From positions 1 through 19,297 of the forward strand of contig JADFKM010000040.1 in NCBI GenBank assembly GCA_022564935.1: a stretch of DNA of 19,297 bases. Reading direction: 5' to 3'. The notes under the pieces are model-generated. The model was given only the letters and a program-made list of their open reading frames with translations, ran no database searches and was not told where the DNA came from. Positions 8,489-10,437 of this stretch are shown here, piece after piece; positions within the stretch are counted from its first letter, which is position 1, and each line of letters starts with the position of its first letter. The position numbers were made by a program, and so were the translations under genes. Origin of the DNA: Candidatus Dadabacteria bacterium. Its GTDB lineage: Bacteria; Desulfobacterota_D; UBA1144; Nemesobacterales; JADFKM01.

Positions 8489-10378
8489 CTACTGAATCGT
8501 TCCATCGAAGTATTTCATGGCCAGTTCGTAGGCGTCCTTGCCGATAATTGATCCGTTAATTCTACCCTCGAAGTCGTCGGCGTCCACATGAATGCCGCCC
8601 CATAGCCGCGAGATCCCCGCCTCGTCCGAGGCATCGTAGTAGGTAGCCCAATGCAGCACTACTTCCTCCGTGGGGCCGATCTCGAATTCCAGGAAATCAT
8701 CCTTCGGAGCCACAAACACACCGAGTCCTCCCGGGAAATATACGTCTCCGGTTAAAGCGGCCAACACCTCTGCAGCGGCGCGGCTGAATGTGCTGTGGCC
8801 TGAGGTATAACCCGCAAAAGGCGGCGTTACGAAGTTGGAGCGCTGATAGGTCAGCCAGTTAATGGCGAGGATCCAGCCTGAGCCGCTGAATTCGGTTTCA
8901 GGATCGTCGGGCTGGCCCTTCCATGCATAGATGGCGATAAAGCCCTCGAAGCCGAGCAGGAGCCTGTGTCTTTCCCCCACAGCCGTTGTCTCCTCGGTGA
9001 TCACCTCTATTAACCCGGGCACTAGAGGGAGCCCGTCAGGATCGTATGACGGTCCCATAGGGTCTGAGGATTGGCCCAGGCCGCCCATGTAGCGGATTGC
9101 GGAGATAGGGCGCACATAGTCGTATTTACGCTTTGCGTCCCAGGCGGATACGGCTGCGTCGTGAACAGCCCCATTGATCGCCAGATACAGCTTCACGTCC
9201 CATTCCTGATCGTCAACCACGGGTCCCACGCCCCCTATCCTCTTCTCAAGGAGCGGGTGATCCGATACATAGTTGGCCAGGGTGTTCCAGTGGCCTGGAG
9301 GGGTTTCGGAGGCCGGCCCGTCCGCCCAAAACTCTGCTATAACTCGGCCGAAGTCGCCGCGCTTGACTATGTTGGGCTCATATGGCTCACCAGTAAACGG
9401 GTTGAGGGGATAGCCGGAGCCGTCATTGGTTCCCAGGGTGTTGTTGCCCCTGGCACCCGGGGAGATGTCGATAAGGACGCCGTCGGTGGGGTCGACCTGG
9501 CTGCTGAATCGAATGACGCGCACAATAGCTTCTTTGAACTCCGCATCTCCAATGCCGCCAAGCAGAGGGGGAAATCCCGGGTCGAGGTATACGTCTACGT
9601 CAGGATTGTCACGGGGGGCCAGGGCGAATGGCGTTACATCTCCCCATTGCGAGCCTAAGAAGACCTGAACGTCGCCCCTCTCGAGTCCGTTCTGTGTAAG
9701 GCGCCCGGTGATATCGAGGGGCTGCCAGCGGTTCGGGTCTACCATTTCAGTGCCGGGAATGCTGACGATCATAGGCTCGTTAACGGGCATATAGCCCGTG
9801 TCATCAACATAGCCGTTGGCCTCGTTTGCCCCGTCGGTGAGACCGTATGCCAATACGGCTTGTGCAATGCGATTGCCCAGCGCCGCAGGGGAGTCTCCCG
9901 AGGTGCTGGTGAACGACTTGTCGTAGCCGAGCTCATTCATTAGTGCGTCGAAAGAGGCCAGTGACATCTCGGCCCCGGGGGAAAGTACGTAGCGAGCCGA
10001 TAGGATACGGTAAGCGGCAAAGCTTATCGCCTCTGCCCGGGCGGCCTCAATGTCTTCAGATGCGGCCGATTCATCGACGAGGTATCCAACTGCGGTTCCG
10101 TCATATGCAGCCCAGGCGTCCCACATTCCCACCGAAGTATGAAACAGGTTGCGTGAGTGCACGGTGGGGGCCGGGTAGTCAATCCGAATCGCATTGAGCA
10201 GTGCTTCGTTCCACAGCCGCGCTACCGAGTACAGATTTTCCCCTGAGCCACCACTGCCCCCTCCACCACAACCTCCTATTGAAGTTATGGAAATAAAGAT
10301 GATTAACAATGACCCTGCAAGAAATCTTAAGTACATATTAAAACTTCTTCTTAATAAATCATTTCTCCTCTGACTCAT
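8489..10378 (-). CDS. Vanadium-dependent haloperoxidase family lipoprotein
   Basis: A 629-residue secreted protein of the vanadium haloperoxidase/PAP2 fold, which uses bound vanadate and hydrogen peroxide to oxidise halides. Every vanadate contact of Curvularia chloroperoxidase has a counterpart: Lys416 and Arg423 (KRKYDYVRP, same seven-residue spacing), Ser526-Gly527-His528 (YTSGHSTF), and Arg591 and His597 (SRLWGGIH, same six-residue spacing). Phe521 sits seven before the active His, as Phe397 does in the chloroperoxidase, where bromoperoxidases have His. The N-terminus has a hydrophobic signal ending in IGGC with Cys37 as probable lipidated residue, followed by a Gly/Ser-rich linker; an RRSF just before the core resembles a Tat signal. 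The ATG at 10378 has a perfect AGGAGG six bases upstream, so the in-frame ATG at 10396 is rejected. Acid phosphatase activity is an alternative, because the site is shared. Confidence 0.85.
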   Translation of the reverse strand: MSQRRNDLLRRSFNMYLRFLAGSLLIIFISITSIGGCGGGGSGGSGENLYSVARLWNEALLNAIRIDYPAPTVHSRNLFHTSVGMWDAWAAYDGTAVGYLVDESAASEDIEAARAEAISFAAYRILSARYVLSPGAEMSLASFDALMNELGYDKSFTSTSGDSPAALGNRIAQAVLAYGLTDGANEANGYVDDTGYMPVNEPMIVSIPGTEMVDPNRWQPLDITGRLTQNGLERGDVQVFLGSQWGDVTPFALAPRDNPDVDVYLDPGFPPLLGGIGDAEFKEAIVRVIRFSSQVDPTDGVLIDISPGARGNNTLGTNDGSGYPLNPFTGEPYEPNIVKRGDFGRVIAEFWADGPASETPPGHWNTLANYVSDHPLLEKRIGGVGPVVDDQEWDVKLYLAINGAVHDAAVSAWDAKRKYDYVRPISAIRYMGGLGQSSDPMGPSYDPDGLPLVPGLIEVITEETTAVGERHRLLLGFEGFIAIYAWKGQPDDPETEFSGSGWILAINWLTYQRSNFVTPPFAGYTSGHSTFSRAAAEVLAALTGDVYFPGGLGVFVAPKDDFLEFEIGPTEEVVLHWATYYDASDEAGISRLWGGIHVDADDFEGRINGSIIGKDAYELAMKYFDGTIQ

Positions 10379-10384
10379 GACTTT

Positions 10385-10390
10385 CCTCCT
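10385..10390 (-). promoter_or_regulatory. Consensus ribosome binding site that fixes the haloperoxidase start
   Basis: AGGAGG on the minus strand, six bases before the ATG at 10378. It lies inside the longer reading frame from 10396 and argues for the downstream start. Confidence 0.8.
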
Positions 10391-10437
10391 TTGCATAGTG
10401 TTTGCTTGTAAAGTGCATATATAGGGAAAGAGAGGGT

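Follow-up and report, generated by a model that had tools for sequence, protein, structure and literature searches.

A predicted lipid-anchored vanadium haloperoxidase of a Candidatus Dadabacteria bacterium and the pairing of its relatives with CRTAC1-type propellers

The set of seven vanadate-contact residues is general to vanadium haloperoxidases (VHPOs) and PAP2 phosphatases alike, and to our knowledge few bacterial VHPOs have been tested. The vanadium iodoperoxidase (VIPO) of Zobellia galactanivorans (4CIT/4USZ) is a bacterial VHPO listed as 'I', i.e., active on iodide only (PMC8407142). The chloroperoxidase (VCPO) of Curvularia inaequalis (1VNC, 1IDQ) belongs to a lineage different from that of the protein described here. 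NapH1, NapH3 and XhnO11 (3W35, 8CXL, 9L8X) possess a DUF6851-type first bundle, and the His of their SGH motif is replaced (SGF in NapH3, SGS in NapH1 and XhnO11); NapH1 and NapH3 are biosynthetic and site-selective. Two further bacterial enzymes are likened here by description: RhobaVHPO of Rhodopirellula baltica (Q7UVW2), which lies outside the known chloroperoxidase clusters and groups with the iodoperoxidases, yet oxidizes chloride as well as bromide with an about five-fold preference for the latter (PMC12871659), and an alkylquinolone-brominating VHPO of Microbulbifer, which is exported and encoded outside a biosynthetic cluster (PMC8407465). Here we present a putative exported VHPO from a Candidatus Dadabacteria bacterium, together with the conservation of its residues and the genomic surroundings of its relatives.

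The window, i.e., the whole stretch of DNA analyzed (19,297 bases), is an entire contig of a draft genome of 2.0 Mb in 104 contigs (89% complete). An open reading frame of 629 codons on its minus strand was judged to be a real gene, and the start at 10378 was preferred over an upstream ATG at 10396 because AGGAGG is spaced six bases from the former (Table 1). Genes for HAD hydrolases, an amidotransferase and a DUF2064 protein are neighbors within the window; an operon with these was rejected, since a 74% identical ortholog (L002) has quite different neighbors. A protein encoded beside this ortholog (L002:1-726) carries a C-terminal sorting-type tail, P-TLSEWG...RRRK. RNA features were not found at the locus. 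PADLOC yielded no match for the gene or the tested neighbors, on which ground a defense-system reading was rejected, and so was a phage or plasmid origin, phage matches being absent and plasmid relatives distant (~30% identity, with 'vanadium-dependent haloperoxidase' or 'DUF6851' as the existing annotation of some). No second VHPO was found in a search of the draft genome at its 89% completeness.

Table 1. Coordinates of features in the window, and loci of relatives referred to in the text.
Feature	Position	Strand	Basis or lineage
Predicted VHPO lipoprotein gene, 629 aa	8489..10378	-	translation, Pfam domains, PDB sequence relatives
Ribosome-binding site AGGAGG	10385..10390	-	six bases 5' of ATG 10378
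Putative signal sequence with lipobox ITSIGG-C37, residues 1-37	10268..10378	-	translation; low-confidence part of AlphaFold model, as expected
Gly/Ser tether, residues 38-46	10241..10267	-	translation; like lipoproteins L094 and L095 of the genome
DUF6851, part of first helical bundle, residues 83-220	9719..10132	-	Pfam
Asp353 = Asp292 of Curvularia VCPO	9320..9322	-	82-sequence alignment, profile alignment
VCPO_2nd start, second helical bundle, residues 397-433, including W413, K416, R423	9080..9190	-	Pfam, profile alignment
Lys416 = Lys353, putative vanadate contact	9131..9133	-	alignments
Arg423 = Arg360, putative vanadate contact	9110..9112	-	alignments
Phe521 = Phe397 of Curvularia VCPO; Phe in Zobellia VIPO too	8816..8818	-	alignments
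Ser526-Gly527-His528 = Ser402-Gly403-His404	8795..8803	-	alignments
Arg591 = Arg490	8606..8608	-	alignments
His597 = His496, putative axial vanadate ligand	8588..8590	-	alignments
VHPO-propeller fusion	L017:7886-11962		Myxococcota
VHPO-propeller fusion, 5' end cut by contig	L023:1-3951		Binatota
VHPO-propeller fusion	L027:8168-11932		Verrucomicrobiota
VHPO-propeller fusion	L088:2186-6052		Verrucomicrobiota
Loci with sugar-transport surroundings	L026, L030, L031, L041, L042, L046, L048, L054, L060, L061 and others

Pfam recognized DUF6851 (E 2.5e-18) and VCPO_2nd (E 2.4e-9), both above the family cut-offs; no NCBIfam model applies to the protein. Every significant relative in a sequence search of the PDB was a VHPO (best E 2.7e-18), and a profile search of the same database yielded VHPOs down to E 4e-48, with Curvularia VCPO at E 3e-13. 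An AlphaFold model was computed from a 34-sequence alignment (pLDDT 89, pTM 0.89). The structural alignment that the sequence-only reading had proposed as a check returned the two-bundle VHPO fold: residues 47-629 of the model superpose on NapH1 (Z 35.2, 2.1 A over 433 residues), Zobellia VIPO (Z 30.0) and Curvularia VCPO (Z 24.5). XhnO11 and NapH3 are also among the nearest solved folds (Foldseek and fold comparison), and algal bromoperoxidases and single-bundle acid phosphatases reached Z values of about 13. At the level of the model, this settles the fold as that of a VHPO as opposed to a plain PAP2 phosphatase; activity does not follow from fold alone.

The translation contains K416-x6-R423, S526-G527-H528 and R591-x5-H597, plus Phe at 521. 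Profile alignment to Curvularia VCPO placed W413/K416/R423 on W350/K353/R360 and D353 on D292, and that to Zobellia VIPO placed F521 and SGH on the motif PPFPEYTSGHS, so that all seven vanadate contacts proposed earlier from the letters alone, with their spacings, lie in register. In an alignment of 82 sequences (80 relatives from many phyla besides the window protein and the ortholog 74% identical to it) W413, K416, R423, F521, S526, H528, R591 and H597 are identical throughout, as is D601; G527 is kept in 81 of the 82, and D353 is invariant or almost so. Judged from this alignment, the invariance of the catalytic positions is far beyond chance. Regarding Zobellia VIPO, the contacts are alike and the motif TPPF-x2-YTSGHS is near-identical, whereas identity over the aligned residues is only 22-23% and the Zobellia enzyme is about 170 residues shorter. 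Regarding Curvularia VCPO, the seven contacts, the equivalents of Asp292, Trp350 and Phe397 and the short spacings are the same, but identity is about 20% and R423 and S526 are 103 residues apart, versus 42 for the equivalent pair.

Residues 1-37 comprise a basic part followed by a hydrophobic stretch ending at the lipobox Cys, and a Gly/Ser tether comes next. The lipobox and glycine linker reported by the sequence-only reading are thus present, and the protein is predicted to be a lipoprotein. A hydrophobic segment also precedes the catalytic domain in 75 of the 80 relatives, an approximate count with upstream parts taken stop to stop; some of these relatives carry lipoboxes, others apparent membrane anchors.

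We consider it likely that the gene encodes an exported, lipid-anchored VHPO. By analogy with the mechanism described for the Curvularia enzyme (PMC10278073) and for VHPOs generally (PMC11871015), which would also supply cofactor, catalysis, halide and release of free hypohalous acid (HOX), the protein would be exported by Sec, lipidated on Cys37 and held on the cell envelope by its short tether, and because it would be tethered outside the cell it would act on external molecules. Vanadate would be bound by His597 and held by Lys416, Arg423, Ser526, Gly527 and Arg591; H2O2 would convert the bound vanadate to peroxovanadate, with His528 as acid/base, and a halide would be oxidized there to HOX, which could exit the pocket and halogenate or oxidize molecules outside the cell. 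Oxygen and peroxide are plausible because the genome encodes a haem-copper oxidase; that neither vanadate uptake nor a peroxide source nor a target was identified in the genome counts against the VHPO reading. The biological purpose can be guessed at as chemical defense, the altering or disrupting of neighbors' signals, or peroxide disposal, and the secreted Microbulbifer-type VHPO outside biosynthetic clusters provides a precedent (PMC8407465).

The residue set, being that of the PAP2 phosphatases, and the phosphatase activity of apo-VCPO (PMC4859513; title of PDB 3bb0) are points against a haloperoxidase and would suit an exported PAP2-superfamily acid phosphatase that retains the VHPO fold. 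We regard this as very unlikely: the predicted architecture is two-bundle, the PAP2 model PF01569 scored 12.0 bits against a cut-off of 27.2 (E 0.18), phosphatases rank far below VHPOs in the fold comparison, and the VHPO residues Trp413, Phe521 and Asp353 are conserved. The phosphatase reading was rejected on the PF01569 score and the fold comparison. A further counterpoint to the VHPO reading is that the fold of NapH3, NapH1 and XhnO11 serves other reactions, though in enzymes without the SGH His. A NapH-like biosynthetic VHPO that acts site-selectively on a product of the genome's NRPS would agree with the nearest solved folds being NapH1, NapH3 and XhnO11, and with the two NRPS condensation domains (L102, L103) at positions 7002-10009 of contig C16 in the same genome. 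The solved selective-type enzymes, however, have SGF, SGS or SAS where the window protein has SGH with His528, the window protein is a predicted exported lipoprotein, the window holds no biosynthetic genes, and the recurrent neighbors of the relatives are CRTAC1 and sugar-transport genes, all of which makes this role highly improbable in our view. The earlier statement that no biosynthetic cluster is nearby extends no further than the 19-kb contig, and the condensation domains on C16 lie elsewhere in the genome.

As to the halide of the predicted exported VHPO, the sequence-only reading had called its active site chloroperoxidase-type. Phe521 is indeed present; it does not discriminate, because the Zobellia iodide enzyme carries, in matching positions, both this Phe and a Trp at i-3 of the active-site Lys, and the label is too strong because both residues are, in addition, invariant in the clade. 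From mutagenesis, Zeides et al. concluded that halogen specificity is not traceable to one residue at the Trp/Arg position (PMC11871015). By analogy with the characterized enzymes, bromide or iodide is a likely substrate and chloride a possible one. A chloroperoxidase in the specific sense, making hypochlorous acid extracellularly, would be a narrower version of the VHPO reading and not exclusive of it; Trp413 and Phe521 match Curvularia VCPO and chloride is oxidized by RhobaVHPO (PMC12871659), but the Zobellia enzyme with the identical Trp and Phe is structurally nearer (Z 30 versus 24) and a single residue does not set the halide range (PMC11871015), so that we hold this version to be rather doubtful.

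At least 567 relatives in many phyla emerged when 84,980 species genomes were scanned. The best 80 of these show 52-65% identity and originate from Chloroflexota, Actinomycetota, Verrucomicrobiota, Planctomycetota, Myxococcota, Acidobacteriota, Binatota and others. In a tree with the best 80, the window protein groups with its ortholog L002 alone, with full support for the pair. Within the sampled order the gene is patchy, because only two of 43 genomes carry it (that of the window and G024). As a single gene, the window copy is unexceptional: its family is widespread and has already been annotated. This large clade, with members in many phyla that carry the full residue set and are apparently exported, could be a source of natural organohalogens and extracellular oxidants.

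The pairing of relatives with CRTAC1-type genes is a more interesting lead than the single window gene. In a clustering of neighbor genes, the combination FG-GAP + UnbV_ASPIC (CRTAC1 type) occurred far above every other family. A CRTAC1-type gene is found no more than 1.2 kb from the VHPO gene in 38 loci (among L017-L091) of the 64 with enough flank, a proportion that, like those by phylum, describes only this sample, i.e., the nearest 80 relatives of the window protein, with search seeds drawn from these same neighborhoods. Pairing was found in Chloroflexota (16/16), Actinomycetota (14/14), Verrucomicrobiota (4/13) and in one locus each of Myxococcota, Binatota, Planctomycetota and Thermomicrobiota. 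The CRTAC1-type gene is downstream on the same strand in 19 cases, upstream on the same strand in 15 and divergent in four, and the pattern of pairing requires at least six changes on the VHPO tree. Searches across the whole of 13 paired genomes showed that eight of them (2.4-5.8 Mb) contain just one UnbV_ASPIC gene, by coordinates always the neighbor of the VHPO gene, and that in a ninth (G111, locus L017) the sole copy above cut-off is inside the VHPO frame, so that in nine of the 13 the VHPO-linked copy is the only one over cut-off.

At four loci, from three phyla, VHPO and CRTAC1-type propeller are encoded in one frame (Table 1). AlphaFold modeling of the L027 fusion yielded both domains. 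The best PDB match of this model is murine CRTAC1 (9ETN); then come, besides VHPOs, propeller lectins that bind sugars and the heads of integrins. The model has a pTM of 0.57 and low confidence in the linker, for which reason no arrangement of the propeller on the VHPO is claimed. Among the papers searched, none joining a haloperoxidase with CRTAC1, UnbV or FG-GAP was found. The window holds no FG-GAP/UnbV_ASPIC gene, whether adjacent or fused to the VHPO gene. The same genome encodes two CRTAC1-type lipoproteins (L094 and L095, contig C73) with a Cys-Gly-run tether resembling that of the window protein; a link between them and the VHPO is unsupported, as L094 has a close relative in G012, where a VHPO match is absent.

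In the wider family the VHPO probably works with the CRTAC1-type propeller, which may place or present the enzyme. A more detailed proposal, to which we give slightly less credence than doubt, is that the VHPO of this clade supplies the enzymatic half of an extracellular halogenating module made of two parts, the other being a CRTAC1-type propeller, encoded nearby or within one chain, that would anchor the enzyme at, or aim it toward, a glycan or protein surface; the window enzyme would then be stand-alone and could use an unlinked CRTAC1 lipoprotein. Pairing and fusion offer a testable handle both on the targets of these VHPOs and on what CRTAC1 proteins do in bacteria.

The VHPO-CRTAC1 pair of Chloroflexota and Actinomycetota stands beside genes for a sugar-type ABC transporter (BPD_transp_2) and a ROK regulator, and adjoins sugar-kinase-/isomerase-like genes as well as genes for a Gfo/Idh-like oxidoreductase and a creatinase/M24-like peptidase. 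These surroundings could reflect lineage synteny or linked function. Other relatives carry different N-terminal parts. The N-terminal 250 residues of L018, L022 and L053 (Myxococcota, Methylococcales) form a common unnamed Cys-containing exported domain, for which Pfam gave no match in L018. In the Myxococcales relatives L069, L072, L090 and L092, a different repeat domain and a lipobox are located N-terminal to the VHPO, with a weak Kelch match in L072.
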